Position numbers and translations under genes: made by a program
The notes under the pieces: model-generated
The model's database searches: none
What the model saw: the letters and a program-made list of their open reading frames with translations, nothing else
Told to the model about the DNA's origin: nothing
In this document: positions 11,701-50,454 of the stretch, in pieces
Position numbering within the stretch: position 1 is the first letter of the stretch
Layout: each line of letters opens with the position of its first letter
From: Lepisosteus oculatus
Taxonomy: Eukaryota > Chordata > Actinopteri > Semionotiformes > Lepisosteidae
Direction of reading: 5' to 3'
Assembly (NCBI RefSeq): GCF_040954835.1
Contig: NC_090716.1
Coordinates: forward strand, 7,890,775-7,954,774
DNA length: 64,000 nucleotides

Positions 11701-14700
11701 AGACATATATTACATTCTCCAAATAATGTTGTAGCAGTTATGTTGTAGCGGTTGTGATTGTGTCAAAATGTACTCAATACCGTTTGATGGGAAGGACCTC
11801 TTGTATGTAATTTATAAAAGTCACAGGGTCACTTTTAATGGAAGATATAAACTGCTGGACTAATAGGAACTAACAAGAGCATTGAACTTGCTCTCTAGTG
11901 TATGTTTCCAAACAAGAGTTAACATGTTGTGCGATGTATTCTTTCAAATAGGATTTGGAAACATCTGTGAAAGAAAGGTTCAGGTGAAAGAATGATGTAT
12001 TCAAGTTATGAATCAAGGCCTGTAATCAGACAAAATAGCTAAGTTCCTCAACCTGTATTTATGAGCAGTGTGAGATCTGGTTTGAGAAGGATCACGTAAC
12101 TCCAGATCGATCTAATTAAATGTTCTTAGGTTTATTGCTGATAATTGCAAGGGATGGGCTACATACAGACGCAGTACCCAGTGAAAACAGGAACAGTATG
12201 GTAAGAAATGTGTCAGACCCAGAATAATAGATGATTTAATTAAAGTGGCCTGCCTTTTACTGAATGTCAGAACACTGGATTATCTGTAATGTATTTGTAA
12301 GGTTTATTGATTACTAATGTTCAACCTTCCATGGTTTAAAGCATCAATTTTTCTATATATACTTTAGTAAAACATTTCTAGGATACTACAGCTAGCTTAC
12401 AGGTTAAGTGCAATTTTGCAGTCGTGCAAATTAAAGCACCCTTGGAGAATTCAGCTTTGACAGCGTATCTGTTGTGTTTTATTAAATGTGCACTCTCAGT
12501 GCCTGAGGTAAAGCTCTGTTGACTGTTATCTTCCGAGATTATGCCTTTCTGACTTCGCATTGTTGTTCACTGTGCAGTTTGAGCTATGGAGCTACGCATC
12601 CTGAAACAGAGCTTCTCCACAGACAGACCTATGCTGCTTCCCATCAGCTCCCTTCATATGCTGCTGCACATCATGCCACAGGTGAGAGAGGTCAAAGCAG
12701 TAGTCCCGCAAGGCCTTGATCCTCCAGGTTTCGGAAGACAACTTCAGTCACTATGGAATTTAAAATTTCAGAATTTAATGTCATGTTACATTTTTTAAAC
12801 ACTGCTAAAACCACGTTTAGTGTTCTGTGTACAGTTTTGGTCACCTTCCTACAAAAAAAAGGCCTTTGCTTCTCTGGAATCTGTTTATAGAAATGTGGCC
12901 AGGTATATTTCTTGGCCTAAAGGACTGAACTACACAGACGATAAAAAGTTGTTTTGTTCTAGTCTTGAACAAATTAAATAAGCAGGGCTGATTCAACTTT
13001 TCAGAACCCTCAAAAGTATTGACAAAGTCAAAATAATGAACTTAAGAATCCATGAAACATGAACCAGGGGACACAAGTGGAAACTGGAAAAGCATTTAAA
13101 TATGAGAATAGGAGGCACTTATTATGCAAAAAGTTGTTAGCATTTAGAGCAAGCTTAACCTGCAGTGTTGCTGCATCTGCTACTCCGACTTCCTTCAGGA
13201 AATGACTGGAGGAGTTCCTCAGATCGTTTAGCCATTAGCAAGTAAGCAAGCTAAATTTCCACCCCTCACTTGTATCTCTCATGGTCTTATGCCTACACCT
13301 GCATGTTGTTGGGATTTGTTTTTTCCCCTAGGACTGTCGGGAATATTTGACACAGGTTTGCACACTGCTGGCAGTAACACTACTGAAACATCAGTCATGA
13401 ATTTCCTCTCTGCTATCGAGTCCCGGAACCAACAGGCTGGACCAGCAGCAGCCGCCCTGCTCCCACAGTTCAGGACTCCATCCTGGCAGACAGGTACAGC
13501 TGGGACCTCCTGCATGTTGTCAGAGCGAAGTGTTTGGCTGGAACATCTCAGGTGTTCTGAGGGTTCTGCGGTCAGAGAGGAATTGCCAGGTGTTCCCTGA
13601 AAATGTTCCTGAGTTTCCTTAATTCCTTCAGTGCTGCCTTTGTGGCTCATTAATCGTGAACATAGGGACACGCATGATTGGCATACTTTAAGTGTCACGA
13701 TCATTGATGTTTTTTTCTTTCCTCCGTTAGGCATGCATTCATCGGCGGCTACAGAGCTGTTTGTTACCGGAGCAATACCAGCTTCAGGAACGTTCCCCCC
13801 AACATCAGCTCTCTCTGCCTATCAGCATCCCAACACGTTCACCACAAGGAACTTTGCCACTACTCCATCTCTGACACTTCAGGATGCAGCTTTTAGCCCC
13901 TCGTCTAATGGCCTGTTGTCCCCCCACGATCCTTTGCTGCAGATCAAGTCAACCCAGGGCACTGTCCCGACTGCTTTGGCATTTGACCGCATTGGGAGCA
14001 CTGTATTGAGTACCAGCCTCCCACCACAGTCCTCAACATATCGTTCAGCCCAAGAATCGGCCCCTCATCTTTTGCAACCTCAGTTCAGTTTGCTACCCTC
14101 GTCCTTGGGAGGAGCACAGCAGGCGACTCAACCTTACAGCACATCGGTCTTCACAGGTTCAGCCACCTCCATCGAAAGAGCACTTCAGCGGGAATGTAGT
14201 GTTATCAAGCACCATCAGAGGCCTTCTAGTACCCAGTCAGTTCAGGCACAGTTGTCCAGCACTCAGCATTCTTTGCAAGGTTACCTAACCAGTGGAAGCG
14301 AAGTCGCTTTCCAGGATCCGTCAAGGCAATCAGCCATGCCCTGCAGCCCAATCGGAGACACTACTCAGGTGAGCAATGGAGGACCACAGCAAAAGACATC
14401 TCAAGCCACACTGGAGCAAACTCAGGCATATCCATCATCCATCCCTTCCCCAGGATTTTCATCTGCATCCAACACAAAAGCAAAAGACTGTTCTACAAAG
14501 CACACCCAGCCCTCCTCAAAGACCTCTAAATCCCAAAGTGTATCTCCTGATGTTCAGCCTCAGAGTTACCCCTCCCCTGTGCAGAAACAGAGTACAGTAA
14601 TAGCCAGCCAGCCACAGGTCTACACCTCTGCACAGCTGCCTAGCTTAATGTCTGTAAGCCAGTCGCAAAACTACGTGACTTCACAGGCCATGTCCAGTAG

Positions 14701-17700
14701 CGTCAGCCACTCACAGGTTTATTCTTCCAGTCAGTCAGAGAAGTTGCCTTCTTTATATAAAACTCTTACTTCTTTCTCTGGCCAATCAGAAAACCTGACT
14801 TCTGCGAGTCAGACGCTTAGTTACTCTTCCAGTCAGCAGCAGGTGTTGTCTACAGTTGGACATAATGAAGAATACGTGGTTCAGGCACAGGATCTGTGCT
14901 CGGTTAACCCATCTCAAAGCTATTCTTCCAGCCACTCTCAGGGTATGCCTACTGTGAGCTATTCTGCACAGTCCCAGGGTCTTTCGTCCGTTAGCCCCTC
15001 ACAGAGCTATGCTTCAGGACAATCACTTACTCTGACCTCACAGTCCCTCTCCTTCTCTTCCACTCGTGCCCAAAATTTGCCAGCCTCGAGCCCTACCCAG
15101 AACTATATGCTAATGCATTCTTCGCCCAGCAGCCAGACAAAAAACGGATCACCGCCACAATCTCAGAAGTACCTGCCTCCAGTCCAGTCGCCTAGTTTTA
15201 CATCCTCCTCCCATTCCCAGGCCTTACCGAACAACAGACCATCAGCTGACCTAAAGCCATCCTATGGTAAAAGAAAATCAGACTCAAATTTGTTTGTCCC
15301 CTCTAAGCAGGAAGAAGATGAATTTCCCATTCAGGACCTGCAGGCTTTGCAGCAGGCCTCTCTTGAGGCTTCAGCCCAGACACTTGCAGAAAGCGCAATA
15401 GGAGACCAAACTACACCATATATTGTCTCAAAGACAGATGACCGGTACAATTCACAGAGTGTAATCCGGAGTAATTCACGGCCTGAAGATCAGATGGTTG
15501 GCCTTACACTTCAGGAATCTAAAAAAGGAGATAGGATGACTTCAATGAGCCACCATGGGCAACATATTGTAGGTGCCAACAATCGAGTAAGTCAAGACAT
15601 TAAGAAAAATTCAAATTTAACACAACCGGCACACATTACCATAAGTGCTGAAGATTTAAAGCAGCACTCATTGTTGCATAAGGTACCAGACTCCAGATCA
15701 CAGAACCATCAGGCACAAGTTATCAGTGCTCAGCAACAACAACAGGGTCAGAATCATGCCACACGACAAGCCCAACACATACGTCTGCCAAGTGCTCAGG
15801 TGCTTCTGGAGCCCTCCCGAGATTTGCAGATGATTTTTCTCCAACAGTCTTTACTGCACTCGGGCATTGATCCTTCTAAGATATCATCCCAGATGCAGCA
15901 GATTCCAGCCCAATATCTACAGATGGATGATCAGATTATTAACTCCAATGGTGGGCCAAATCAGTCACACCAGATTCTTTCTCCCAGCTCAGAGGTCTTG
16001 AAGATGGATGTTACAGAGTCTTCAAAATCGCTACAGCAGCATTTGTCTCCAAAAGATAATTATAGCCAACCAAGTCAGCATGAATCTAAGCACCACTTTG
16101 CTCTCAGTTCCATCTGTTTTCCCGATTCAATGTTGCTGGCAGATGAGAGGAACATCCTTTCCAACGTGGACGATATTTTAGCTGCCACTGCTGCAGCATG
16201 TGGGGTTACTCCTCAGGATTTTGTCAAACCAAACTCCTCAGAAGGTGAAATCCCTTCGCTTGCAAGCCCAGCTGACTCAAAGACTCCTTTTCAGGTTGTC
16301 GAGGCAAGGCATGTTTCTCCCAGTTTCACCTCCCAGCATTCTGGTGTTGCCAACCCACAGAATATGAGCATGGCTCTAAATGGTGGGCAGTTAAATATGG
16401 GTATGCACTCAGTGTCAGCGGTGCAGCCCAAGGCTTCAGGCCTTGAGCACCAGGGGCTGCAAGATTCAAACATACAGCCTGGGTTGACCGCTCCATCAGC
16501 TAACTCTAGGCACGAGGTTGGCGATAGGAATGTGTCATCTGTACAAAAGTCAAGAGGCACGAACCACGAGTCAGAAGAGGAAAATGAGGATGTGCCCGAT
16601 GATGAGGCTCTGAACCATAACGATCCTGACTTCATTCCCAGTGGCAGGAGCATAAGCGATGAAAGTGCTGCATCAGAAAATGAATTTAATTTAGCCAATG
16701 AGGAGTATGACCCTACTGGGCTCCTGAACAAGGCAAAATCACAGATGGAGCAAAGGGGCAAAGCTCAGGTACAGCCTCGAGGGCGAATGAACAGCAAGAA
16801 TGATGAGACGATACTGGAGTTTTCTCCCGACGGGCTTCCAAAGAAAAAAAACAAGACTAAGGGGTCAGGGAAGCCGACCGCAGAGGATGAAAACGGCAAC
16901 GCGAAGCCGATGAAACGAAGCGGCCAGGGCAAGCGACAGAACTCCAGGGGAAGCGACACCAATTCGCCTTCCACCTCCGACAGCTGCTATGACAGCTACC
17001 AGCACCAGGAGAGAATACGACAAAAAATTCGGGAGGTTGAGGAAAAGCAGCCAGAGGTCAAAACTGGATTCATAGGTTCATTTTTAGACTTTTTAAAATC
17101 GGGACCTAAGCAGCAGTTTTCGTCTCCTCCGATACGAATGCCCAATCGCACAAGAAAGCCACCTGTGGCTTCCATACGGCCCCCTTATCCTCTTCCCTTG
17201 CCTGTGAAGCCTCAGCCTCTAGCAACACCGTTGATTTCTCCAGAGCCTGATAGCATAAGTCCTTCCAAGAGACTTGATGATGAGCTCAAGAAGAACTTGG
17301 AAACACTGCCGTCGTTTTCCTCTGACGAAGATGACTCTGTTGGAAAGAACCAGGACCTTCAGAAGAGCATATCCTCTGCGCTTTCTGCATTGGATGAGCC
17401 CTCTGAGAAAAAGATCAAGTCAGGTAACTAAGACTAGATCCATCATTGGCCGAAATTAAGCAAGCAAAGGGGACTCCTTCAACTCTTTTAGTGGAATGCA
17501 CTTCCATCCTCTTAATAGTTAGAAACTAAGTATTAAAACTGCTCCCATCATACAGATTTTAAAAATGTAATTTGTAGTGTATATTACTCTGGTGTGCATG
17601 GTAACTTGTTGTTCATTTGGATCTGAATAAAAATAACACTCTCTGTAAATGCTCACACACTTTTCTTATTGTAAATCGACAGAAGCTGCAGAGACGAATC

Positions 17701-20700: not shown

Positions 20701-23310
20701 TTCAGAGTTTACTCCTCCAGTTCCCTTCGCTACTCGTTTTTTGAACACCAGGACCATGAAAGAGACTTTCAAAAGCTATGTGGAGCTGTTAATCAGTGTC
20801 GCGCTGGACGCTGATATGATGGAAGCACTGGAAAAAGAGAGCGGTGAGCACCGATTATGAGAGAGCATGACATTTGTTTTAAGTTCTCAGACTTGGAAGG
20901 TTTATTCAAAACTAAATCTGCTTGTAATGTCCAAGATGTACAAAGAAAACTAATAACTTTTGGACTTGTAGTTTTGTAAGGAAAGTAATTTCTTTGGGTT
21001 AGAAATATTTAATGTATCTTAATTTTATGTTACCTTGCAAGTCCAGTTTGTGTGATGGGGAGAACATTAATGAATGACTTTGGATTAATAATGTCAAGTG
21101 TTTGGCAGAAAATACATCTCTGTGGAATGACATTGAACCAGTGGACATTTCCATAAAGTTACTTTCAGACTATCTGACTTATTTTTCTCTGAATGTTCTT
21201 CAGATGAACTGCTTCTTCCACACATGAAAAGAGTTGATGGTATGATCACTGATAACAGAAGGAGACTGCTTCCCAAACTTCGAGTTGGACAGCTGTTCAA
21301 GGTATTGAATTTTGAAATTCGGAAAACTCCGGAGTGGACTGGAGTTGAACATTCGTTTTCTGCCATTTCATAAGCCTTTAGCATACATTTATTCCAAATT
21401 AGAATGCCAAACATGGATAACTTTGTGCTCTTGTGCTGTTTCTCTTTCAGAATGCATTGGACAGCTTTCCAGAATTATCAGTAGTAACGGACATGAAAAA
21501 GGATGGAGAAACTTCTTCATTTAAAGTCCGATTAAGTGGGAAAGCTTACAACAAGAAAACTCTTAGGCCAACCAAAACCTCCAGCAAATTACCACTAGTA
21601 AGTCATGTACAGTTTACTAAAGTAAGTTATAAACACTTCATTTCAAGTTTATAAAATAACCTTATAGAAGCTTGGAAATATTTTCAGAACAATTTTCAGA
21701 AACTGAGAGTTAAATACAATTTCCTCTAATTCTTGTTTCCTGAAAACCAGATATATACTGGTAACATACCTTAGTTATATTATGTGTCCGTGAAATCCAA
21801 ATGTTTTAGGAAAGCCTTTAGTTTTTATATAGCTTTCACAGGCTAACTTTTTTTCCAGAAACATCTACAATTCAACCAATGTGGAAGGGACTGCAAATGT
21901 CTGATTGTCACTAAACATAAAATGTATTTTAGGTCAGGTTGTAATTTAAAAGATAAAAGCTGTAAAAAGATTGCAAAAGGGCAAGAATTTCAACACGTGA
22001 CACATTAAAAGCTACTAAAAGCTTTTCAAATCTATGCTGCACCGTGTAATGTTGTGACCAGCTTTTGTCTTGATATGCAAGAGAGAACAAAGGAAAAATA
22101 AAATTGACCACTAGGTGGTGTCTATGATAAGCAATGAAGCCCCTGTTTTTAATTTGTTTTCCTACCAGTGAAAATGACAAATTGCCCAAGCACCGCTTAC
22201 TGTAATTTAGCGTTTAATTACACTAAATTATGTTTGTATTCTACACAATACTTGAGGGATGATTTTTATGTGTTTACAACTTAATTTCTTGGCCTTAATA
22301 TTTTTTCCCTTAACATGCCAGCTTTTTCCTAGCCTAGGGAACAACAATTGCAAAAACAGTGCTCGCTTTGGAGTAGTTTTCACCACAGTGCATACAGAGC
22401 AGGATTCCGAAAGTAGTTTTTCTGAAGATCTTAGTAGGCACCAATAACCTCTCTATAAAATATTTCTTCAACCTGTTTTATAGGAATATACTGTGGACAA
22501 GGAAAAAACCCACTGGTTTTCATTATACCATTCACTCCAACATTACAAATATCACACGTACCTTATGTGTAAAGATGAGGTAAGTATAGTGTTCTTTTTC
22601 CTTGAGGTATTTGCCCAGAAGAAAAACTGGAAAGATTTTTTTTTATTCTTTTTAGACATCACTTCATATTCATATCAAAGGTTTTTTTCCTTGCCACTTT
22701 TATGCTATGTGGAATTGTAGGGAAAATCTGCTGCAAACACTGCTGTGCTTCAGTGTCTTTGTTTTCCCTGGAGGTAATTGGAATTTTAAACATTTTAGAT
22801 TTTTGCATGTATTTTATGTTGATGTTTCTATTCTCTTTACAAAAGCATGGACACGTAACCCCAAAATGTCATATTTTCCATGTCCTTCTTGGATAAAATG
22901 ATTTTCTAATTTATAGCATTTAGTCTATAAAAGTTCATGACAATTACAAACACTGGGTGTACTCTTGCAATGTTAGTGGATTTTTGTTAATTGCAGCAGT
23001 GATTATTAGCTTTAGGGATAAGGCTGTGAACATATACCTTTTTTTAAAAGGGTACAATTTTGCACATTCTGGAAAGGTATGTTCTGAGCAGTTGACCAGT
23101 GTAGTTCTATCTTCCTTTTGCCTTTTTTGAAAGCGAGTCAAATCTATTGCACGTTTCTTTCCCCAGATTGCAGCGCTTCAGAAACAGAGCGAGGAGGATC
23201 TGGGGCAGGAGGAGACTGTACAGCTCTGTATGAAAAATGCTAGATGGGTAGAAAGTCTCTTTGAAAAGTTTGGTGAACTTCTGACACAAGTACAGCAGAC
23301 CTGTTTATAG
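5797..23310 (+). CDS. qser1: QSER1, glutamine- and serine-rich protein 1 (complete, 13 coding exons)
   Basis: Coding exons: 5797-5903, 12578-12681, 13332-13493, 13731-17423, 17683-17963, 19200-19316, 19519-19652, 20077-20300, 20706-20843, 21204-21301, 21451-21597, 22484-22579, 23167-23310 (stop TAG). All junctions are GT-AG and all phases close, giving about 1,814 aa; human is about 1,735. The N-terminus [15 protein letters not shown] matches the QSER1/PRR12 family start; either ATG (5797 or 5800) could be used. Residues ~125-1355 are Ser/Gln-rich and disordered. The C-terminal third carries the conserved [17 protein letters not shown] and [12 protein letters not shown] blocks, a basic KKRKKW nuclear-localisation-like stretch, and [12 protein letters not shown]. 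Human QSER1 is reported to act with TET1 in guarding DNA-methylation valleys from DNMT3. Assignment to QSER1 rather than its paralogue PRR12 rests on sequence and on the DEPDC7-TCP11L1-CSTF3 neighbours. Confidence 0.97.
5904..12577 (+). other. QSER1 intron 1 (6.7 kb)
   Basis: The longest intron in the gene. I see no exon of another gene. The 141-codon open frame at 6805-7230 has no recognisable domain, and the small ORFs near 8.5 and 9.8 kb look like chance. A CpG-bearing patch at about 6,600-6,680 contains GC-box/KLF-like (GGCGTGGCC), forkhead-like (TTGTTTGTCAACA) and ATAAAAGG sequences and may be regulatory. Confidence 0.4.
12815..13135 (+). mobile_element. CR1-like LINE 3'-end remnant
   Basis: In QSER1 intron 2. 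The sequence runs GTACAGTTTTGGTCACC...CTACAAAAAA, then TCTGGAATCTGTTTATAGAAATGTGGCCAGG, AAAGTATTGACAAAGTC, GGGGACACAAGTGGAAACTGG and GCATTTAAATATGAGAATAGGAGGCAC. This is the order of motifs in the 3' part of CR1-type LINEs as I remember it ([10 protein letters not shown].., RATRL, GIDKV, RGHKWKL, FFSHRV). It is diverged and non-functional. Confidence 0.6.
13731..17423 (+). other. qser1: QSER1 giant exon 4 (Gln/Ser-rich region)
   Basis: A 3,693-bp exon bounded by acceptor CCTCCGTTAG and donor TCAG|GTAACT, entered and left in phase 1. The first third is family-conserved ([43 protein letters not shown]). The middle (about residues 280-520 of the protein) consists of degenerate tandem units of the form SQ.YSSSxSQ. 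The last part is acidic then basic, with SDEDDS and PKKKNK stretches. If the intron is retained, translation ends two codons after the donor at TAA (17429-17431). Confidence 0.9.
22108..22120 (+). promoter_or_regulatory. CTCF-like motif in QSER1 intron 11
   Basis: CCACTAGGTGGTG is close to the CTCF core (CCASYAGRKGGCR) in forward orientation. This is a motif match by eye only; occupancy is unknown. Confidence 0.35.
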
Positions 23311-25620: not shown

Positions 25621-26885
25621 GCTTAAAACCTGCTTGCTCTTTGCCTAATCTTGGAATTAGGGGTCCCAAAAGTGCTCTCGGGGAGATTGTTCCACAGATT
25701 TTGTCAGGGGTGGACAAGAGCATGACTCCTTCCCAGTGGTTGCTTCTCGCCCAGAATGCCAGAAAGAGAGCTTTCACACCGGTCTTCTGGAATTACGTCA
25801 TTCACTATTAACGTGTATGGCATCTGTGATAGCACTTGCTTCCAAACTGCTCTTCTGCAGGGAGTGAATTCCAGCGACTTGGACGTGTTTTTCTAAAACA
25901 AAAAGTAATGCAAAAAGTCCAACCCTTAATTTAATTTCTCAGGTGGGACACTCACTATTTTATCACCTAACCACAAACAACCCATCGTATCGATCTTAGT
26001 TTAGAGATCTGAATGAAAACATGCAGTGCTGCTGTAAATCTTTGAAATTAATCTCATTCCATCTTCCTCTTACACCGAAAACATTCCTTTTCCTTCTGAT
26101 TTGTAATGAATTGTTTAATCCTAACATTTACTATGCATACCTGCTCATGTAAATCAGACATAGCTGCTCTTTTTCATTATTGCTGAAGAGAACGATTATA
26201 CAATTGTCAATGTAAACAACACAAAAAGGCGTACAGTACTGCAATAGGAGTGTATACAAAATACTGGAGACTGCTAAATTGATGCAATTTAAGATTGAGG
26301 TAGGTCACGGACTACTATGTTTTAGGCTATATGCATATCTGTAATAAAAGTACAAGAATTTAGCGGTTGTTTTCTAAACACATTTTAAATTTCTCTAATG
26401 TTTCGGGAACGTTGAAGCTGTTTCATAAGATGCGCTTCTTAATATTTCGAATTCTATGGATTCCGATGTCTTATCCAGTAAGAAATGATGCATTTACTAA
26501 TGGTTTACAATTGCAAACGAATAGTTAAACAAATATATTTTTGGCAACGTTTGTGGCGAAAAGACGAATTTCTAATGCAAGAAATTGTATAGGGCTAATA
26601 AAGTGATGTTATGTTATGTAAAACGTTTCGTGGGTTTTGTACATTTATCAGTTTTTGGACGGGGTGAAGATAAAGTCTAAGAATCACTGTATTTTTGAAA
26701 AGCTAAAATCCTTACGGAAAACCTGTGCGTCTTGGCGACTTTAGGAATAAACGCCACACGACTTTTCTGCGCGACTGCTGTATCGTGACTTTCGGTTCGG
26801 TTGCTGTGGCATCCGAATTCCGTTATCTGGTTTGAAGTAATACTTGTCGTTAAACAAACGACAAACGAGAGAAAGAGAGAAAGAC
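25620..26885. other. Intergenic sequence and probable promoter of the CECR2-like gene
   Basis: From 25,620 to about 26,690 I recognise nothing. The last ~190 bp (26,700-26,885) is comparatively rich in CpG (TTGGCGAC, TGCGCGACTG, TATCGTGACTTTCGGTTCGG) immediately upstream of the start codon, consistent with a CpG-type promoter and short 5' UTR. Confidence 0.4.
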
Positions 26886-29800
26886 ATGAGTGAAAAAGCA
26901 GTACAATCTAGCGTTTCCCTGGAGATTTTAAGATCCTGGTGGGAGATCCCTGCAGTAGCCCATTATTGTCAGCTGTTTCGTGATGTTTTTGTTATCCCGG
27001 CTTTTGAAATCGAGGTACGCTGGTGTTATTAAATTTAGACCTTTTTATAACTCCTTCGACAGTCTGTTGATCTCGTAGTAGCTCAGCTTTTGTGAACAAT
27101 TGGTGGAATTTCTACAAATTGTTTATTTTTGTGCACTTCTTAACCGTTTTGGTACAACATTTACTTAACGGAGAAAAATGACCAATATGTTTTGAGAGTA
27201 ACTATTCATTATTCCCAGATTGTCCTTACAGTATTTGTTGTAAGTAACTGATAATTTTCGCATGTCACCTTTTAAAAAAAAACAGTGCACTTTACTATTA
27301 CTGACAGACATCCCCAAGCAAATGAGGTCTTGTTGTACAAGCAGTCTCATTAGGATGTTGCCCTGCCTAGAGCAACCCTGAAGATAAAAGATTGTAATCC
27401 CACAACCTGAAAGCTAAACATTAAAATATATATATATATTTACATTAATATCACACAATGTACTGCAGGTACTCGAGGAAGCTTTGCTGGCTGAAAACTG
27501 GGAGTTTTTCGAAGTGCTTCTATTGCATCTTCTCAAAGGGTGCTATCAGCGCCAGGATATAAGGTAAATTACTGGTATGATTTTTTATCATTATTTTTTA
27601 TTAGAACCTTTTTTTTACCTTCCATGAAAGCAAAACCCCAGTGAAGGTCTTTTTTTTCCTTTCCATTGCATCAGTAGCGAAAACTTCCACTCGTACCTGA
27701 CGGATATTGTGTGGTATCGCTGGGAGCTGGAAGATGGGCTAGTTAACCCGCTGCAGGAGAAAAGTTTCAGAGATCTCTCTGCAAAGTCTATCGTGCAGAT
27801 ACTGCTCAGGCTCTGTGTGTACCGAATGGACGCTCCTGATGTCACTGATCAATTAAAGGTAGGAAGTTACAATCTAATCAATTAAAGAAAAAACTTACAA
27901 TCTAAGGATGAGAACCATTGCCTAAGAACCATTGGATCACCCACTGTGTTCCGAAGCTGAAATATCCTTTTATAAAAAAGATTTAATGGTGGCTTAAAAT
28001 GAAAATTGTGTAGTACATGGGTATATTTTGTATACTTGGGCATTCTGGACACTTACCAGATTGTCTGTTGTATATTTATGGCCACAAACTCAGCAGCTTC
28101 CTTTATAGCCAATATGGAGGTCGTCTCTAGGGGAAGTATCTTGGAGGGCCTTTGTCATTGTGCTTTGCAGGCATTTGCAGCAGACAGCTTGCGTGTCGAC
28201 CCCGTTGGTGAAGACAGAAATGGCACCCTGTACTGGTACTTCTGTGAAACTAGACTGTACAAGGAAGAGCCTCCACTGAACAGAGTAAAGCAGAAAAGAA
28301 GGACAAGCCTAGCCGAGACAGTGAAGAAAAAAAAGGAATTTATGTAAAAGCACAATTTTCCTTAGAAGACATAGATTAAAGTCTGTGTAAATAAGAATAT
28401 GTACAGTATATATTTTAAATCATTTTGCTAAAATGAATGATGCTATATTGTTAATGACAATATATTTTATAGAATGTATGTACCTGTATATACTATCGTC
28501 ATATTCCTTAGAAATTTAGCTGCATCGCATGGTGATAACTTTTATTGTGTTAGATCATTTTTTTAATCAGTCCACTGTGACAGAACAGCAGCTTGTTGGC
28601 TGTTAGGTACAGAAACATGGCTTTAATGAGCTATAACTAATCTCAATAAGTATCACAAAATACAAAAGACTGCTCGTGTTGTAAAGGATCAATTAAGATA
28701 TTGACATTGGTGGAATGAAACTAAAATTTTAAATTGCAAATAATAAATAATGAGGATTCAGACTTGCTGTAGCATGTTGTTTTTGACGTCTGTACCACAC
28801 CATACCTGAAATGCTGACATTGATTATACAGAAGCATTTTCTCACTAAGCCTCTTACTACTTTTTGTTTCACAAAGATTTCTTGTTGATATTTTTTTTTT
28901 TCAGGAAGTCAAGGAAATGCAAAGTGAAGACCTTAAGGCAAAAGGATAGAGCACAATATTCAAAAAAGAGCAAAAAGAAAAAAACGGGGTATTGTATTTC
29001 AAATACTGCTTTTACATTATGTAGAACACCATCAACGAGGACACCAAAAACATTATGCCATGCCAATTCTAACCATTGCACCATGTCAATTCTTACATTA
29101 TTTTTTCTACTCTTCACTAGAGATTATGTAACTAGCATATTCGTATAAGCATTAGTGTGGTCAAGGAATCTTAAGTCTCTAAGTATTTGAAATAATCTAA
29201 GACGTTACCTGGATTTGTTAATCATAGTGCTGTTTTATTCTAGAAGTAGGCTGAAGAAAAACGAAGACTGCCACAGACTTGAAGGGGGAGAAAATGAGAG
29301 ATTTCCTGAGATCAGTAATAAGAGTAAGAAGTTCAGATTTTAAGAATAACCATCAAATTATAATGTAGCGTTATTTCTTTTCTGTTCTTAATCTGACTTG
29401 TAGTGTCTCTTTTAATAGTGTATTTTTTTCCAGCCACATTCACTTTGTGTTTTGGATTATGTTCCTTTTTTATTTCGTAATTATTAGGAATGTTGACCCT
29501 GTGTGCACAATCTGAGTATATGGGCACTTGGTCCCTTGTGTGTGAACGTTTGGAAGACTGGAAGGATTTGGCCGCAACATTCAGGGGAAGCGCGTATCGG
29601 AGAGAGCAAGAACTCTACAAAACCCTCGTTCAGACTCTGATTCCTCAAATTGGACACTTAAGCACTCAGAAGGTAAGAAGGGCCTTTTGTGTCCAACAAT
29701 AAACAGTGATGTCATGTCACCCAGCACCTGAATAAAGAGTTGCAGAGTAATCCAATGAGTAAAGGCACTTTCTTAGAGTCAAGAGTTAAGTCCACACATT

Positions 29801-32800
29801 TGCCAGAAAAGTCTGGGAATCCAGAAGCTAGAGCACAAACTGGCCCATCTTCATCAAGGTCCATTGAGTTTGAGTAAATGATGGATAAGATAGAACTCTT
29901 GTCATCAGATCCTGTAGTGTGCTGTTGAGCTAGCACTGCAGTGTGTTGTCTGGACATTTTGGAGGAGAGTATTCGCAGTCCTCATACCCTTTCTGTTGCT
30001 GGGAAAGGTCTTAGTTCTCAATTGGCATGAACAGTGAATTGGATTTTGTGTTCCCATGCATGTACAATGTGATGTGGTTTGCTCTTAACAAACACTGGAG
30101 TGTACCATCATTCAAAGTATACCTTTGAGTCTCTCATTTTCTTAATTACATTGTGTTACACCTAGAAAAAGAAAGAGCTACTCACCCAACCAAGAAGAAT
30201 GTCTGAGTGCATTCAGAAAAAGCAGGAGACACATGTAGGTGGATTAATGATTGATTACATTGCTGGCTGACATTGCTTTCTTTAAAGTACAGTACTTATT
30301 TACTTTACTACTGTAGTTTCATTCAGTTTCAGTTGTAAACTATTTAGGCAGAAATCAGGAGTCATTTATTTCCTATCAGTGTCATAAACAGACTCAATGA
30401 GGTTAGACAAGCATGGATATTTACTTAATTTGAGACATTTTCCATTTTTGTTTTATTTTGAGAAATTGTAAAGATAAATGTTTGAAGTCTGGTGTTTTTC
30501 AGGAAAAGAATGTTCTGCTTTTAAAAACAAAAGATGGTGGAAGAGGCAGCCGTGAATGTATTACCAAAGAGGAAAGTGCAGGACCTTTAAAGCAGAGAGA
30601 AAATCCAACAGGAAAAGGTAAACCTCAATGTACAAACCTAGTACCTGAATTATATGTATTTGACACAGTTCGCATTTTGCATCTGTCACTGACAGGGAAA
30701 CTGAAAAAATATCAGAAACAGACCTCTGGTGTATGCAAAGAGCCTTCTTCTGAGAAGAGAAAAAAAGAAGAGCACCTGGATCTCCACAGGTAAAACATGA
30801 TCTACTCAGATAGGCAACCATAAAGGATCCAAATACAAAAAGCTGGATGGAAACAAAACATTTCTTTCTGTGCATCCTTTCAAAGATACTCAAAAGTGAT
30901 ATTCACACAAATCCTGCCAGCTCTCTTGATTGTTGGAAAGACTGCAGCATACAAGGGGATTTTCTAATGTCTTATGGTGTGAACATTCCATAAACTAGAA
31001 GATCACTAGCATTGATATTAATTACACACTCCTCAGCAAGATGCTACAACACCCCACTTACTTAGTAAATATATATTTAAGTCACCTTAAATAAAGGCTG
31101 AGCTGGAAGCTGCCAAAGATGGAGTTTATCACATATTCGCTGAGCAGCAAAAACAGAACACTTACATAAGATATGAATCCCCTTTAATAATATCATAATG
31201 TAGGACTTCATCAGCTGAAATATACAATTTTCTTAGAATCAGATACAATATTGATCTCATGCCCTTATCATCCTTTTTTAATTATAGCATATAGTTTGAA
31301 TAATCAGAAGCCTTAAATATAAGAAAGGACTTGTATGTAATATGTATGTATACATTTTTATATTTGCTCCTCACTAGTGCATTCCGTACCTGTGTGTCTT
31401 ACTTCTAAAATTAGAACAAGCAGTTACATTTAAGGTTTAATTTACTCATATGCTGTTACTTTTCCCTTTTTTAAAATATTGATCTTTTGAAACATCTGCT
31501 ATGATGCCATAATTGTCTTCTTTTTTTACATTTAAATGTTTATTTTTCAGTGATTATTCAGACAATGAGGAATACATGTCCATGTTCAAAGGTAAGTGTT
31601 TTCTTCTTTCTATATTGTACTGGGTCACTCCCCAAGGAGAGTAAGTAAATATATGCTGGAAATTAATAGATTGCTTTAGAAATGTTTAACTATAAAGTTA
31701 TAACACAGATTGGATTAATAATAAAATCTCCTATTAGCCATGATAGCCATTGTAATGTTCTATTTATACACCAGACCTCAATTAATGATGTAATTCCTGA
31801 TTGTAGTAGAGTACAGTAATGGTGGGCTAAACTCACAGTTGAAATCATAGTGAGGGCTCTCTCTTGGACATCATGAGGAAATTGAAAATATGTAAATCCT
31901 AACGTCTGGTTTTAGCAATATATTTGATATTTTAGGTTTTCAATAACCAAGTCTATATTCTTTGCAATTTAGTTCTGGAAACAGTTAAGAACCATGCGGA
32001 CTCATGGCCATTTACAGATCCTGTAAAGGAAGATGTACCTGGCTACCACAAAAATATTAAGGTAACAGTGATTCATTTGCCAGCCATTCATGGTAGGTTC
32101 ATTTTCTTAACTTTAACCTTTTTTAAAGGCTGCAATTTAGGCATAGTAAATTTAAAGACAGAAAGTGAATCTGTGAATTATCCATATTTTATCATACTTT
32201 AATATCCATATTTTATCATTTCATACTTTTTTATTGACACGTGGTGTGGTGATTAGCACTGGTCCTTAATACCTCATGGGTGCATGGGTTTTCACTAGCT
32301 ACTTTGGTTTCCTTCTATATTCCAAAAATAAGTCTGGCCTGCCAGGTTGACTGCTGTCTCTTAATTGTCCCTGTGTGCTTGTCTGCCCTGCAATGGACTG
32401 GCTTCCCAATCAGAGTGTGACCCCATCCAGCACCCTGGTTGCTTTAAGTTTGCCACAACCTTTGCCAGAAATAACTGGCTTCAGATGGATGGATATGTTT
32501 TTCATTTTTTGTTAGTTTTGGTTCAGATTAGTTCGTATTTTCTGAAACAGGCTCCGATGGACCTTCTGACCATTGAGGATAATCTCATTCATAAGCGATA
32601 CAAGACCACAGATGACTTTGTAGCACATTTTGGCCTGATTTTTAAAGAGGATGAGCTGTATCCTGGGAAAAGCGGTATGCATTTTACAGATGATACAGTA
32701 CATATATAGCAGCCAGCTTTGAGGTGCCAAACCCAATGTCTTGATTATCCTCCTCCTCTCTAAGAGTACACCCTGATGGCATCTTCTGTGAAACAGTGCT

Positions 32801-33996
32801 TCCACAACGCCATGCGGAAGTATTTTCCTGAGGAGCAATCAGACAGCGACGAAGAGGAGTTCACAATGGACACCACGATCAAAGGCAAACCAGAGAAGAG
32901 AAAGAGGCGCTCAACACCAAAGAAGGCTGCAGAAAGGAATGTGTTAAAATTACTAGATGAAGAAGTCAATCCCAGGAGATATCACAAAAAAACATACAAA
33001 AAGGATGTTGCAGAGCTTTGTGTCCAAAGACAGGCAAGGAGTCATTCTGTTTTATGAGTTACTGCTGATAATGTCTTCCACAGGGTGTATTTTACGGGGT
33101 ATCTGACCATGTTCTGCTGTTGCGCCTCTGTGCTATAAAAAAAGAAAATTACTGAAACAATTTGTGTGCTTTGAGAAAAAAGATAAATACTTTTTAATGC
33201 ATAACTTCATGAGCAAATATGTAACAAGAATTAAATATTTATCCTATTATATTTAAAGCATAGTATTCTACCATTTTTTAATGGTAAATATAGAGACTCT
33301 TTTATTCATAAAGAGGTCTGGCTCTTAAGAGATTTGCACATTTTGTGAACATGCAAACAATGCAGTGGAAAAAAAACATCGATCCTTCATCTGGGGAGCC
33401 CAGCTCAAAAACCAGGCTTTGTATCACAGCAGATATTTTGAAGTAAAAGGGATTTGTCTCCTAAAATACTGATTAGAGTAAATCTTGTTTTTTTTCTTTT
33501 TTTATAGACCCAAGCAGCTGCGCCAACAGCATACCAATTTATTCACACAACAAAGCAACCCAGCTTAATTGCACCATCTCCCTGCTATGTTAACAGACCA
33601 CAGAATGTGACAATGTTGCCACATTCTCCAATGATGCCTTTACTACAAACTCCCAGTCAAGAGTCATTGAGTCAAGCACCATTTCCAACTTCAAAGGTCT
33701 TTTACCCCAATAACCTCTTTCCAGTGCAGTGGCAGAGCTCCATCTCTGGATCTGTTCTACCATATGCTTGGCCAGTGACTTATTTTATTCCAGCCTTCCC
33801 ACAACCTGCACCATACCTGGGAACACTGGAACGGGCAAATCAAGAAGGAAAAAAACAGCACAAAACAACTCCTGTTGTCTTTGAATTCATACCACAGCTT
33901 CCCAATATCTTACAAAAGATGGAGATGCCTTATTCATGTGACGTTGTACCATGTAAGACCTCTCCAACACATGAACCCACTTTGGAAGGTATATAA
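26886..33996 (+). CDS. CECR2-like DDT-type/bromodomain chromatin protein (complete, 15 exons)
   Basis: Exons: 26886-27014, 27469-27563, 27675-27858, 28171-28343, 28905-28988, 29244-29323, 29488-29672, 30166-30234, 30503-30617, 30696-30789, 31551-31591, 31973-32061, 32551-32674, 32765-33033, 33508-33996. Phases all close, giving 739 aa with no internal stop. Residues ~12-194 match the CECR2 N-terminus (LRSWWEIPAVAHYCQLFR, GCYQRQDI, FHSYLTDIVWYRWELEDG, ADSLRVDPVGED..LYWYF). Residues ~265-310 match the TWWLLC/EEW..RERQLYK block. Residues ~403-513 are a bromodomain with WPF shelf (428-430) and IKAPMD. A basic tail and a Pro-rich segment follow. Human CECR2, about 1,480 aa, partners the ISWI ATPases in the CERF remodeller. 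This protein is half that length, and the bromodomain Asn is Pro. Being a paralogue rather than the CECR2 orthologue is inferred from location and divergence. Confidence 0.9.
31551..32860 (+). other. Bromodomain exons of the CECR2-like gene
   Basis: Exons 11-14 encode helix Z (about DYSDNEEYMSMFKVLETVK), the ZA loop with WPF and PGYH (ZA Tyr kept at 441), IKAPMD leading into helix A, helix B (KTTDDFVAHFGLIFK), a BC loop reading ELYPGKSEYT, and helix C (VKQCFHNAMRKYFPEE). An acidic SDSDEEEF follows, as in CECR2 (DTDEEF). By alignment to CECR2 (MFRNCRKYNGESSEYTKM) the conserved Asn falls on Pro484, codon CCT at 32662-32664. Confidence 0.85.
32239..32496 (+). mobile_element. V-SINE-like element, copy 2
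   Basis: In intron 12 of the CECR2-like gene. It reads GTGATTAGCACTGGTCC at the head, GTGTGCTTGTCTGCCCTGCAATGGACTGG in the body and ends CAGATGGATGGAT. It is diverged, and its end lies about 55 bp before bromodomain exon 13. Confidence 0.6.
33034..33507 (+). other. Probable GC-AG intron in the CECR2-like gene
   Basis: Exon 14 reads on into a TGA at 33055-33057, but ends plausibly at CAG|GCAAGG (33033|33034), a good GC-type donor. The downstream acceptor TTTTTTTATAG|ACC (33507|33508) restores phase 0 and opens a further 162 codons. Either the GC donor is used or the short form ends at 33057. Confidence 0.55.
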
Positions 33997-34299
33997 ATTT
34001 GTAATGGTATGTGGAAAGTATGTTGTGTCTAAATTTAATAAAGCGTAGGAGGAAGATTTTAAAAAGAAACTTGACAAAACAAATAGTTTGGACTGGGCAA
34101 AAAATTCAAGAAAGTATGTACACAATTGGAAAGGTGGCTGACTGTACTTTCCATTTTTTTGCCTGCAAGGGATTTTAAATTACTTTTTTTGCAAAAAATA
34201 CTTTTTGGACGTTTCTGAGGTGTAATAGTTTTTGGTTATTTTCTATTTGAATGGCTGTAATGGGTTCTTTTTGTTGAAATTGCTAATCTGCCTTTCCAG

Positions 34300-34376
34300 T
34301 GGAGCCTTATTTCACATGCTTCAGTTTTACAGGAAATGCCACAATGGGAGTCGGCAAACATAATGTCACAGAGTAG
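34300..34376 (+). CDS. Alternative last exon of the CECR2-like gene
   Basis: Exon 15 contains an in-frame donor GAAG|GTATAT after 33988 (phase 1), just before its own stop. The acceptor GCCTTTCCAG at 34290-34299 is strong, and the frame continues 25 codons from 34300 to TAG at 34374-34376. This would replace the last two residues with about 25 others. There is no homology support; only splice-site quality and phase. Confidence 0.35.
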
Positions 34377-34406: not shown

Positions 34407-34842
34407 ATGAGCTGTCTACACAGAGCCTCGCAGTCAGCAGGTGCCGCAGATACAGCAACTAGTGAAGATTATAGTGAAAGCAGCTCTTGAATTCAGTGTC
34501 ACTGAACAAGAAGACTTGACTTCCTCTCTGAAGATGAAAAAAAACAGAAGATAGCAATCTGCCTGGGCAAAAGAGCAATGAAGACCAAACTGCTGAAGAA
34601 GCCCAGAGGAAAAAGCATAGAAATCTCTCTATGAATGCTGGGAAAAGTCAGCAACCCTCAAATGACACAGAAAGGCAAAATGTTAGAACTAGAGTTACTG
34701 AAATGCTCATCTTAATTCTGGTGTTAAGGAAGAAGATGATTTAAGTATGTTAGTAAATAGCATGTTAGTCAAAACATGAAATAAATGGCTCATAATTTAA
34801 GGTAATTGGCTTGAATGGTTCTTTCTAAAACAAAGTTTTTGG

Positions 34843-35133
34843 AGCCTCCTTAGTGACTCAACTGGTAAAGAATCACTTGCCTGAGTGCAGACTGAGCTCT
34901 GTGATCCAGGTGATGCAGGTCCGAGCCTGGGTCATGTCACTGACTATGACTGGGATTATTGCCCAAGTGGCAATGTGCAATGGGCTGGGTGTCACTGAGA
35001 GCTCTCGTCAGACTCCTCCAGGCTCTCCTCTGGTCAGTACAGGACCTTCTGCATGGGGCTGTGCTACCTTGGACATGTTAAGAGACAAGAAACTCGAAAG
35101 TTTGCTTGCACTTATTCAGTTCCCTGGTGGGAG

Positions 35134-35135
<2 letters not shown>
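34843..35135 (+). mobile_element. tRNA-derived SINE
   Basis: The head resembles a tRNA with an A-box-like TAGTGACTCAACTGG and a B-box-like GGTCCGAGCCTGG, spaced as in tRNA genes. A non-tRNA body of about 200 bp follows and runs directly into a trinucleotide tail. It is distinct from the V-SINE-like copies. It is not a functional tRNA gene: no stem-closing acceptor arm is seen. Confidence 0.55.
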
Positions 35136-35181
<46 letters not shown>

Positions 35182-35197
35182 TATAATAATAATAATT
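35136..35197. repeat. (AAT)n microsatellite
   Basis: About 62 bp of AAT/ATA repeats with one ATT interruption, forming the 3' tail of the tRNA-derived SINE. Open frames through it (poly-Ile, poly-Asn) are artefacts. Confidence 0.95.
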
Positions 35198-35335
35198 ACT
35201 TACACTTATATAGTGCTTTTCTGGACACTCCACTCAAAGCGCTTTACATGTAATGGGGACTCTCTTCCACCACCACAAATGTGCAGCATCCACCTGGATG
35301 GTTGTGGCATTTGTAGCAGAGAAGTGAAAAGCACA
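35198..35335. mobile_element. Dispersed-repeat fragment next to the microsatellite
   Basis: Sequence TTACACTTATATAGTGC, then CTGGACACTCCACTCAAAGC and GCTTTACATGTAATGGGGAC resembles a short dispersed repeat that I recall seeing many times in fish genomes. The family name is uncertain. Confidence 0.4.
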
Positions 35336-37619
35336 TAACTGACTATTCCAAAATATATTTGGCAATTTAAATTTGAAAAGGTTTTTTATTTATTTTTCAG
35401 ATTTTAAACTGGCATTGTCCTTTGTCTTAAATACTGCTTACATACCTGGATTTATTATTGCCTATTTACAAAAGTCAGTTAACAGTGGAATGAGTATGTC
35501 TGAAATAGAGAGTGCTGTGATAACTCATTTCAAAGGTCTTGCAACAATGTTTGATGGCTCGCTCTTGCTTTGTTTTTAGAATGATAAGTTACTGCACAAA
35601 TGATTTTGCTTTGTGGTCCAAGAGAAAAGTACATGAGCTTGCAACTTGTTAAAATAAATAACAAGCAGAATTGTCTTATCTCTTCACACCTGACCAGTTA
35701 GCTTTTGAAAACAAATCTGTGACATTTTGCACATCATATGATGATGGGACAAAATGTAATAGTTATGCTTGGAGAAAGTATTTACAAATGAAACTACATT
35801 TACTTGCACCAAATAAGATCCTGGGTTTTTAAAACCAAAAATACAGATATTTTTTATTTTTATCTTGAAAAATGATTGGGTCCTTGAGAAATTAGTGAGT
35901 TGCAATAATTTGTGATTTAATTTATATATAAAAGAATGTTTACTGAGAAGGAGACAATAGCTACTTTAAAAGTCAATGAGGATTAAGACTTAATCTGACC
36001 TAATAAATGTACGATAATATGAAGACAGTTCAAGCCTTTACAGCACCCAGCAGCCTTGAAATTATCATATTAAAGTGACAATTTTTAAAACTTTCAAAAA
36101 GTTTAAAAGCAAATTAGATATTTTCAATGTCTTGCTCCACCTGTGCTTTTTCCATTGTTATGTAATCACAGACAAAACAAAGCACTGCACAGCAATACAG
36201 TGTGTACTGAAATAACAAAAGCTGCTTTTGACCAAGAGCACTATGCAACAATTTATTAGCAAATGTTCCCTATTCCTGTTGAGAAAAATATTGTATTTAT
36301 TACAGTTGCCTACTTCTAACTACACATAGGGAATTCTGTGATTTTCATTAAACCTAAATATTTGAGTTGATCTTCATGTGAAATTCTAACTCATCTGTGC
36401 TTTACGTCACTGTACTGTATGTTAGAAATCATTCTGTTCCAACCCTGATTATTCTTTTCACCCTTCCTTTAACCTTCACTTAGACCTTTGCCTTCATAAC
36501 CTGCCAGCCATGATATTTTGAGTTTACTAAAGAAAGAGGATTAGGTATCGTTTTTCGAAATGTTCTGGTTAAAGAATTCATCTACTTTTTTGTGTGAAAA
36601 TCAGTTTCATTTGGGTGTAGCAATTTATAATTCTTAGTTACACAATTTCCATTTTTAGATTTTTATGATATGTTGATTTAATTACAGTCTTAACAGCAGG
36701 CATTGTTTTAAAATAATTTCCCTTATATTATTGAATATGTATCAGACTGGCAATGAAGTAACTATTTCCCCCTTTCTTCCCTTTTTTTTCTAAGCCAGGT
36801 ATTTTCATGGGCTGAAAATCGGAAATATACCATTGTAGGAAAGCTGCCTTGTAACATCGGTTTTGAGCTCTCTAAAGCAAATTTAGAAAATGGGCTTATT
36901 TGGGTCCAGCATATTCAAAATGTGCATTGTTCTCTTTGAAATCCTTAAATTGTACTGGGCTATTGAAGAAAATATGTTGAGCACAATGTGGCAGACGTTT
37001 CGGATTCCCTCCACAAAAGCACGTCTGTTGTCTAACACACATGAATAAATGAAAGCACTGTTCATAGTCTATCAAAATTTCCATTTAAGTTGGAGTTAAG
37101 AATTCAAGGCAGTATATTTGTTGGAAAAAAAATCACTGCATATTTGTTAAACACAAATGTCTGGGTTATGGTGGAAAGAGATACATGAATATTAATATTT
37201 TTCACATATCTTTGCAAGTGGGCCCGAACTAAGAATCCCATTGTACGTTTCATTTGGTGCAGTCAACATGGAATTTTGTTTATTCCTTACTTCACTATTC
37301 TTCCAATTGAAACCCAATCTCCCGAACTTTAGGGCCTCGAGACAAGGTTGCGTAAACTTTTCTGCCTTTTTTGATTATTGCTAATATATCATTACAGCTG
37401 GAAAGCTCTAATATCGATGTGTGTTCCCCAGGAGGTTTACAACATTTCAAAGTTTTATCAACTATAACATATTCACACAAACTCTTATCTCGTCTTCCTT
37501 GATGAGCAGGAAGCTCCCCGAACTGAGACTGAGTGTGTTTTGTATTCATTTTAGGAAGCCTTTACTTCAGCTTCCTTCATTTTTAAAGGGAAAACACCAT
37601 TCAATTGAGTGCATAAACT

Positions 37620-39450: not shown

Positions 39451-40577
39451 CCACCATGCCATGATCTTCTATAATTTAATGAGACAATTAAAAATATAAT
39501 GGATTAATTAAATCAATTAATTAGAGGAATAAAGACCTGGTAGGGGAACTATGGTGTGCTTGAGCACTACTGTTCATACGAAACATACATATACTTTTAC
39601 CAGCCATAGAAAGTGTAAAGGCACCTACAGTATGTGCCGTGAGATTCCATTGTCACGCTGTTCAGGTTTGACTGTGACCCATATTTCACTATAAACAGCT
39701 TCCCCCTGGCACACAGAGGTAACGACTCCACATGCACGCTGGTGTGGGCATGCAGTGCTTGGATTCATGGATGCCGGAGGAGAGAAGCTTCATTCCAAAT
39801 GCGTCTATCCCCCAAATTGTCCAAGTCTACAGCTGGACAAGGACACGGGACTGCTGGAAAGATCGCAAGGGGAGGTCATTTGGACCACATTGCTTGTATG
39901 GTAGTGTCGTACCTAAGTCAATCTATAATTTCGACCAACCATTTCTTAAAAGAGCTCAGACGCCACAGGGTCGGGAAGTCCGATCCAGATGCCCACGGCT
40001 CTGTGCGAAAAAAAATGTTTTCTGTTCTCTATCTGATCTGTATTCCCTTTCGGTTCCCAATTTCGGGTTTTTATTTAAAACAAGTCAAGCGAAATATTAG
40101 ACGCGGATTAATGTTAAAATCTCAGTTGAAAAAATAACATATTAATAACAATACAAATATTGTAAATTATTAAAAATGAACACATTTAAATAGATAGACT
40201 TACGGATAATTTATCCCTGCAATAGAGTTGATCTAAATTTAGCCAGAACCTTTAATTAGTTTATTACATTGTTTATTGACTTAAATTGTAGAAATTACGA
40301 GTGTTTCCATGTTTTAGTCATTGAGGAGTTTGAATTCCCTATAAAGCGTGCTGGGCTGTTGATCTCCGAGGATCAATCCTTAAGGTAGTCCAGCAATAGT
40401 AAAACAAAAAGGTACAAGAAACTAGCGACAAACGGTTTGCCATGGCACACGGTATAAGGGACAGCAAACAGATTATCAGTGTGGTCGATTGCCAGTGAAA
40501 CGCCGCTTGATGACTAATTTGCTTAGTGACACCTGCGATGTGAATAAGAGGTGGAGGCTTTGGGGTTGGCTCCGCTG

Positions 40578-40585
40578 TTACGTCA
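40578..40585 (+). promoter_or_regulatory. CRE-like site in the DEPDC7 promoter
   Basis: TTACGTCA, one base from the palindromic TGACGTCA, lies 46 bp upstream of the DEPDC7 start codon within the CpG-bearing 40,490-40,700 segment. Candidate CREB/ATF site by motif only. Confidence 0.4.
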
Positions 40586-40630
40586 CCGCTCCAGTACGAA
40601 TTGAGAAAGTGGAGCTACTGCTGCAGAGTT

Positions 40631-49342
<8,712 letters not shown>

Positions 49343-49440: not shown

Positions 49441-50330
49441 CTGCTTCATCTTAATTTGACTTTTTGGTCCTAACCACAGTTCATTTTTTTTTTTCCCCCA
49501 CGTAGTGACTCAAGCCATTCGATATGCGTGCCACAGTCATTAAATATTGGCATTTTGGTTTCAATAAATTCAAGCTGCACTTCAAAATACTTGGCATTTT
49601 ATTCTGCAGGGGAAATGATTTTGCATTTTAGAACTGCTATCTTCATATTAGATTGCATCTTCCTCTAATCTTTGCCTGTTGGTGGACTCCTTGGAGACCA
49701 AAAACTCCAGCTATATGAACGATTATTTTTAAATGATGTTATAAATGATTTGGACTTTTTTTTTTTCCCCACCAGACGTGAAATCCACATGTCCGTCTGT
49801 TTCCAAGGTCAAAAGTTCTGCATTTCCTGCGCTTATGAATACATCTCTTTGTAGCCGAATCAGAATGACAAAAGCTATCTGAATGTCAATTCGCCAGGGA
49901 TAATAGCAGGGTGGAGAACGCACAATCGCACTGCAGTATATTACCATTAAACTAACTTAAAGAACATTTAATACTGATCTACACCAGATGCAATTGAATG
50001 CTTTATTGTAAGCTTTCAAATCTGGGAAGTGGGTTTCGTCAGATCCCATTGCCATTCGAACCAGTGCAGGACCGCGTTCTGCGCAAAGTAAAATAAAAAC
50101 GGATCTGCCGCTTGAGGTCGCCAGTTGATTCCCGTATAAAGAAAAACACATGCAAGGAAGAGGAATCCTCTTTTCCGACGATAAAGAACTTATTTTAAGA
50201 TCGGGTTAAGGGAGCTGTTGCACAGATAATATCGACGACCGTCACATTCCCAGCACAGTAACTACGACTGGGAGGGCGTTGAGGGGGAAAATAAAAACAG
50301 TCTGGAATTTAATCCCAGCATCGTTTTAAA
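49441..50330. other. Intergenic spacer DEPDC7-TCP11L1
   Basis: About 0.9 kb with no gene. Base composition shifts from AT-rich to CpG-bearing toward 50.2 kb, where the TCP11L1 promoter begins. Small ORFs here are chance. Confidence 0.5.
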
Positions 50331-50340
50331 GCCGCCTACC

Positions 50341-50422
50341 AGAAGTTGTAGTTCTCTTGCAAGTGCGCGACCTCTGAACAGGAAAGAAAGTCGAAGAACC
50401 AAAAACAAAACTACAATTCCCA
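50341..50422. promoter_or_regulatory. TCP11L1 promoter with paired ZNF143/SBS-like motifs
   Basis: ACTACAATTCCCA at 50410-50422 (+) matches the ZNF143/Staf-associated promoter element ACTACAAYTCCCA. AGAAGTTGTAGTT at 50341-50353 is a weaker copy in reverse orientation. An ETS-like ATTTCCG lies near 50450. The surrounding 50.33-50.53 kb is rich in CpG. Together these mark a housekeeping-type promoter just upstream of the presumed noncoding first exon. Confidence 0.55.
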
Positions 50423-50454
50423 CGTAGCCGTGCCGACTGTAGGAACGTCATTTC

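Follow-up and report, generated by a model that had tools for sequence, protein, structure and literature searches.

A CECR2 paralogue between QSER1 and DEPDC7 in the gar Lepisosteus oculatus that lacks the acetyl-lysine anchor of its bromodomain

What is an intact gene of the CECR2 family doing between QSER1 and DEPDC7 in the gar Lepisosteus oculatus? To our knowledge, CECR2 is usually treated as a single gene, and its bromodomain as a reader of acetylated histones. The gene in question (here the window copy, or C21 copy) lies on the plus strand at 26886-34376 of a stretch of 64,000 nucleotides, C21:7,890,775-7,954,774 of a 1.2 Gb genome, and this whole stretch is called the window; C3, C5, C7 and C21 are contig labels of the same genome. 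The answer that we favor is that it is an intact paralogue of the canonical CECR2 on C7 and most likely its ohnologue, dating from the genome duplications of early vertebrates (2R). Its product would have kept the part that docks on ISWI remodelers and dropped the parts that read chromatin. We give this reading as a whole a probability of roughly 55%.

When the 16 exons are spliced by script from the ATG at 26886 to the TAG at 34376, they join into an open frame of 762 codons with a single, terminal stop, confirming the intact multi-exon CECR2-family gene that an earlier note had described between QSER1 and DEPDC7. GT-AG borders are present at fourteen of the 15 introns; the remaining one, after 33033, has GC-AG. 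The 739 residues and 15 exons given in that note stand in part: a protein of exactly 739 residues is obtained if translation ends within exon 15 at an alternative stop, TAA 33996, whereas the end at 34376 belongs to the 762-residue model. The junction between exons 4 and 5 is ambiguous, being either 28343/28905 (762 residues) or 28284/28909 (741 residues). The first is preferred because its acceptor is better by eye and its phase equals that of the canonical gene, and the 741-residue chain is kept as an alternative model. The features of the locus are, in window coordinates:

26101-27300, no strand: CpG-rich promoter-like region around exon 1; observed/expected CpG 1.54, the window maximum.
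26886-27014, plus: exon 1, with start codon and N-terminal helical (DDT-like) region; 62% amino acid identity to C7 CECR2 exon 1 over 32 residues.
27469-27563, plus: exon 2; length (95) and phase equal those of C7 exon 2.
27675-27858, plus: exon 3; length (184) and phase equal those of C7 exon 3.
28171-28343, plus: exon 4, with WSD-like motif and alternative donor 28284; 65% amino acid identity to C7 over 34 residues, and phase.
28905-28988, plus: exon 5, at the position of the AT-hook exon, RGRP core absent; C7 exon 5 has KRGRPPKKKK, the window copy RAQYSKKSKKKK.
29244-29323, plus: exon 6, from open frame and splice sites only; C7 counterpart not located.
29488-29672, plus: exon 7; 38% amino acid identity to C7 over 50 residues.
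30166-30234, plus: exon 8; phase 0 in and 0 out, as in its C7 counterpart (read by eye).
30503-30617, plus: exon 9, at the position of the charged-helix exon of CECR2, diverged; phase 0 in and 1 out, as in C7.
30696-30789, plus: exon 10, diverged; phase 1 in and 2 out, as in C7.
31551-31591, plus: exon 11; phase 2 in and 1 out, as in C7.
31973-32061, plus: exon 12, first part of the bromodomain, SWPF kept; from the PDB search and alignment to C7.
32551-32674, plus: exon 13, with helix B and the BC loop of the bromodomain and with Pro in place of the anchor Asn (TAT CCT GGG); from sequence comparison.
32765-33033, plus: exon 14, end of the bromodomain and basic linker, followed by the GC-AG intron; from the joined frame and alignment to C7.
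33508-33988, plus: exon 15, tail, alternative stop 33996; no counterpart in the CECR2 tail at an E cut-off of 0.1.
34300-34376, plus: exon 16 and stop codon; from the joined frame.
34780-34785, plus: first AATAAA downstream of the stop; from the sequence.

That the protein has the N-terminal region of CECR2 and a bromodomain, as was claimed before, is borne out by an exon-wise match and by PDB and Pfam searches. The top PDB match of the bromodomain is human CECR2 (8ru1, E 1e-22), and CECR2 takes the first three places among the 406 PDB matches obtained at E up to 1. The Pfam Bromodomain model scores the window copy at 45.2 bits (E 9.4e-12; cut-off 21.7) and the C7 copy at 93.9 bits. The N-terminus matches human CECR2 exon by exon; the human query is provisional in this region and everywhere else outside the bromodomain, whose letters come from PDB. 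A PDB search for relatives of the N-terminus gave none up to E 1. The Pfam KIAA2026 helical domain matches the N-terminus of C7 CECR2 at 42 bits (cut-off 27.8); the window copy stays below that cut-off, at 20.6 and 23.8 bits. KIAA2026 is, however, a separate gene, and the match on C3 (38%, E 2e-4) is far weaker than the C7/C21 pair. This C3 match (C3:33829960-33830490 and C3:33836198-33836425) is a 567-residue open frame that resembles the CECR2 N-terminus and lies near a bromodomain match, which, taken with the Pfam KIAA2026 helical match, suggests a distant relative, perhaps KIAA2026, the name being a guess.

Is the window gene then simply the CECR2 of this fish? A search of the genome with the window protein found CECR2 exons on C7 from 8.8997 to 8.968 Mb. 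With the provisional human query, this second gene spans 8,899,655 to at least 8,973,590 and includes the long CECR2 tail at 26-29% identity. It is adjoined by ATP6V1E1 and by a carrier of the SLC25A18/22 type (provisional human queries, the carrier being found with SLC25A22); from its position we take the carrier to be SLC25A18, since ATP6V1E1 and SLC25A18 are neighbors of CECR2 in human 22q11. Within the 200 kb that surround this C7 gene, provisional BID and MICAL queries had no match at E up to 0.1. The genome thus holds a canonical CECR2 on C7, and the window gene is therefore a paralogue; the case in which it would be the only CECR2 and hence the orthologue, allowed for in the earlier note, does not arise. 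With the C7 N-terminus as query, matches at E below 1e-4 fall only on C7 and C21, and a search of the same genome for a third CECR2 returned weak matches only (C3, E 2e-4 and 2.2; C1, E 0.23; C5, E 0.27).

The window copy has the N-terminal helical/WSD-like region, exon order, intron phases and bromodomain of CECR2 (human 22q11 and fish C7). It is, by contrast, about half as long as human CECR2, and its coding sequence extends over 7.5 kb, whereas that of the C7 gene takes up at least 74 kb. All 13 comparable introns agree in phase with C7, and exons 2 and 3 are identical in length. In this count, phase itself helped to decide the donor of intron 4, the comparison covers a single side of introns 5 and of intron 6 (C7 exon 6 not being located), and translations were inspected by eye for the incoming phases and for C7 exon 8. 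Over 361 aligned codons, amino acid identity is 47%, nonsynonymous divergence (dN) is 0.43-0.46, and synonymous divergence (dS) is 2.14 (LWL85) or 2.67 (maximum likelihood) and undefined by NG86, which is near saturation; at fourfold sites, 38 of 62 differ. Over 302 residues, identity is 51.0% between C21 and C7, 52.3% between C21 and human and 73.2% between C7 and human (human partly provisional); private positions number 83 in C21, 20 in C7 and 16 in human. The bromodomain considered separately (94 residues, human letters from PDB) gives 46%, 46% and 68% for the same three pairs. The best-kept part is exons 1-4, at 54-65% identity to C7, and exons 9 and 10 have retained their phase and little of their sequence.

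The losses include residues to which chromatin reading is ascribed. Bromodomains are described as carrying, in helix B, a signature pattern of D, N, Y and a docking N (PMC3326523). This signature is intact in human and C7 CECR2 and reads H/E/Y/P in the window copy, so that three of the four polar residues are lost: the helix-B Asp has become His, the Asn has become Glu, and the acetyl-lysine anchor Asn has become Pro (YN to YP). The strict motif is present in 3 of 8 other bromodomain loci of the genome, the pattern being too strict for an estimate of frequency. In a preprint on human CECR2 (PMC11661176), the N514A substitution weakens binding to H3K14ac 16 fold (34.2 to 560.5 µM), to H4K8ac 34 fold (15.4 to 518.7 µM) and to tetra-acetylated H4 25 fold (1.5 to 37.4 µM), and abolishes binding to RelA-K310ac. 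The conserved anchor Asn is also replaced in PHIP(2) (PMC5977933) and MLL (PMC3326523); the window copy differs from both in having Pro together with the loss of the helix-B Asp and Asn. Furthermore, the RGRP core of the AT-hook, present on C7 as KRGRPPKKKK in exon 5, is absent from the window protein; Pfam AT_hook is listed for C7 only, below its cut-off (9.6 bits, cut-off 17.4). The long CECR2 tail, sought with the provisional human query, has no match in the window gene at E up to 0.1. One exon 15 match (E 0.097) falls in a C7 intron, and a tail match inside the QSER1 exon of the window (20%, E 0.03) was taken as chance. The loss of the anchor Asn and of the AT-hook core are new points, on which the earlier note was silent. 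Judged by these residues, the bromodomain would be blind to acetyl-lysine. The gene belongs to the CECR2 lineage by descent and should not be classed as a CECR2-type acetyl-lysine reader, because the AT-hook core and the anchor Asn were both looked for and neither was found.

CECR2 is a regulatory subunit of CERF, with SNF2L or SNF2H, and has roles in neurulation and spermatogenesis; its functional description comprises DDT, AT-hook and acetyl-lysine bromodomain (PMC11661176). We propose that CECR2 was duplicated in the 2R events and that one copy was kept beside QSER1 and DEPDC7. Its product would be a nuclear regulatory subunit, probably docking on an ISWI ATPase (SNF2L or SNF2H) through the N-terminal DDT-like/WSD-like region, and would have dropped the acetyl-lysine anchor Asn, two further signature residues, the AT-hook core and the long tail. 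Docking on ISWI without steering by acetyl-lysine is proposed because the DDT/WSD-like region is the one that has been kept. A remodeler subunit unsteered by acetylation could act as a competitor of CECR2 or make its own choice of targets. If this is true, the gene would be a natural separation-of-function CECR2, with the remodeler uncoupled from acetylation, and an ohnologue with a degraded reader pocket would offer a test, set up by nature, that separates the CECR2 functions depending on acetyl-lysine reading from those that do not.

The alternative that survives best keeps the same 2R paralogue but has its bromodomain still binding acyl-lysine via other residues, as a reader with shifted specificity. 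Indeed, the Pfam Bromodomain score is still 45.2 bits, SWPF and the Tyr before the anchor are kept, and threonine or tyrosine can replace the Asn in bromodomains (PMC3326523). Moreover, N514A leaves the affinity of human CECR2 for tetra-acetylated H3 unchanged (28.0 and 28.4 µM; preprint PMC11661176), and therefore loss of the Asn need not abolish all binding. Pro, however, offers no side-chain donor, and the helix-B Asp and the second Asn are gone as well, so that we regard a shifted reader as unlikely.

A second alternative is that the paralogue is dying, being recently silenced or losing function, with its frame open by chance. Its fast divergence (51.0% identity to C7 against 73.2% between C7 and human), the loss of key residues, and two donors that are weak by eye (TAT/gtaaaa and GGG/gtattg) in addition to the GC donor would fit such a gene. 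The observed/expected CpG ratio, on the other hand, peaks at 1.54 at exon 1 against a median of 0.34 over 634 sub-windows, the maximum of the window, and peaks of this kind are seen at many active promoters. Together, this peak and the stop-free frame argue for a living gene. When the 361 codons, in their C7 version, were evolved neutrally in silico (500 runs per level, substitutions only), the frame remained free of stops in 10/500 runs at 0.1 substitutions per site and in 0/500 at 0.2, 0.5, 1.0 and 1.3, so that any decay must be very recent. Since pairwise dS is near 2 or more and the frame is still open, the window gene, on this evidence, cannot have evolved without constraint over the greater part of its existence. 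With no internal stop in 762 codons and GT/GC-AG at 15 of 15 introns, the earlier view that it is not a pseudogene holds, and we consider a dying paralogue somewhat less probable than a shifted reader.

How old, then, is the duplication? Five families were chosen beforehand because their human members pair 11p with 12p or 22q, and each of the five is represented on C7 as well as on C21. Neurotrophins are found on C5, C7 and C21 (proteins that we take to be NTF3-like and BDNF-like), Caprin on C7 and C21 only, TEA on C5, C7 and C21, SLC25A18/22 on C5, C7 and C21 at E below 1e-14, and MICAL bMERB on C7, C21 and six other contigs, its C7 matches lying away from CECR2. The NGF, Caprin, TEA, SLC25A18/22 and CECR2 searches brought up no extra gene pairs, their counts being lower bounds. 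As C7 and C21 both hold members of the five chosen families, a 2R origin of the window gene appears most likely, and most naturally C7 and C21 would be sister chromosomes of 2R origin, with the window gene as the CECR2 ohnologue. Furthermore, with similar rates in C7 and human, a duplicate formed after the fish-tetrapod split would sit closer to C7 than to human; C21 is not closer. Near-saturated synonymous sites, equal distance to C7 and human and the five common families are in agreement with the separate, ancient paralogue that had been suggested before. Genes of the TEA, NGF-family and SLC25A18/22-like kinds are also present on C5 (26.94-33.20 Mb), which therefore looks like a third sister of C7 and C21; with the C7 N-terminus as query, no CECR2 copy was found there.

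It is improbable that CECR2 was duplicated at the DNA level more recently, within this lineage, and that the duplicate reached C21 by chance and evolved fast: one genome was examined and a long branch can mimic age, but synonymous sites are near saturation, the copy is no closer to fish C7 than to human CECR2, and C21 shares old gene pairs with C7. Finally, retroposition and a fortuitous series of open frames can both be set aside, because the 13 comparable introns are in phase with C7 CECR2, as the introns had already led the earlier note to argue, and the match to CECR2 reaches E 1e-22.

Apart from the unchanged binding of tetra-acetylated H3 by N514A, several points weigh against the ISWI-docking 2R ohnologue. 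The five-family test confirms rather than samples, its families having been chosen in advance from human pairs; MICAL is widely spread, and DUF4211, searched to confirm QSER1, is found on C21, C5 and C4 and not on C7. The age rests on one genome and on a human sequence that is provisional outside the bromodomain. Pfam DDT is sub-threshold for C7 CECR2 (18.6 bits, cut-off 22) and is not listed for the window copy, in which Pfam WSD is sub-threshold; docking on ISWI is for this reason an inference. Expression of the window gene is likewise presumed from sequence.

Beyond this locus, we tentatively suggest, at rather less than even odds, that early jawed vertebrates had two CECR2 genes, the second being kept in non-teleost fish as an acetylation-uncoupled, CERF-like ISWI subunit and lost in human. 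This would add one gene to the set of the vertebrate ancestor. A literature search, judged from its listings, found no description of a second CECR2 gene, and automatic annotations may already carry the window gene as CECR2-like. A bromodomain survey of 24 species has cecr2 as one subfamily member in its tilapia, human and zebrafish tree, and does not place it among the ten for which it names paralogues in teleosts; for spotted gar it gives a total of 39 bromodomain genes (PMC9454494). Outside its gene table, the survey neither shows nor excludes the window gene in gar.

The neighbors of the gene bear on its loss elsewhere. Upstream, QSER1 has a large exon at 13613-17431 and a DUF4211 match at 20705-20854 (30.2 bits, cut-off 27); downstream, DEPDC7 has a DEP domain within 43707-44300. 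Beyond these two domains, the names QSER1 and DEPDC7 are our assumption. In a table of human 11p13 deletions, QSER1 is followed by DEPDC7 with no gene listed between them, although this table may omit genes (PMC9408430). The loss in mammals put forward earlier is thus supported for human, to the extent that the table is complete, and for human only. Further CpG peaks at window 39801-42200 (1.19) and 49701-51100 (1.24) may mark the starts of DEPDC7 and of the next gene.

An Rfam scan of the window gave zero matches at gathering thresholds. Just past the end of the gene, a repeat-like stretch at window 34829-35340 contains an AAT microsatellite at about 35140-35190. Elsewhere on C21, the BDNF-like gene at C21:3149853-3150185 (minus strand), which appears to be of the ray-finned type, shows odd replacements in its mature part (for example NEACRG and KKKKAWRF), as judged against BDNF, a protein whose mature part is normally very conserved.

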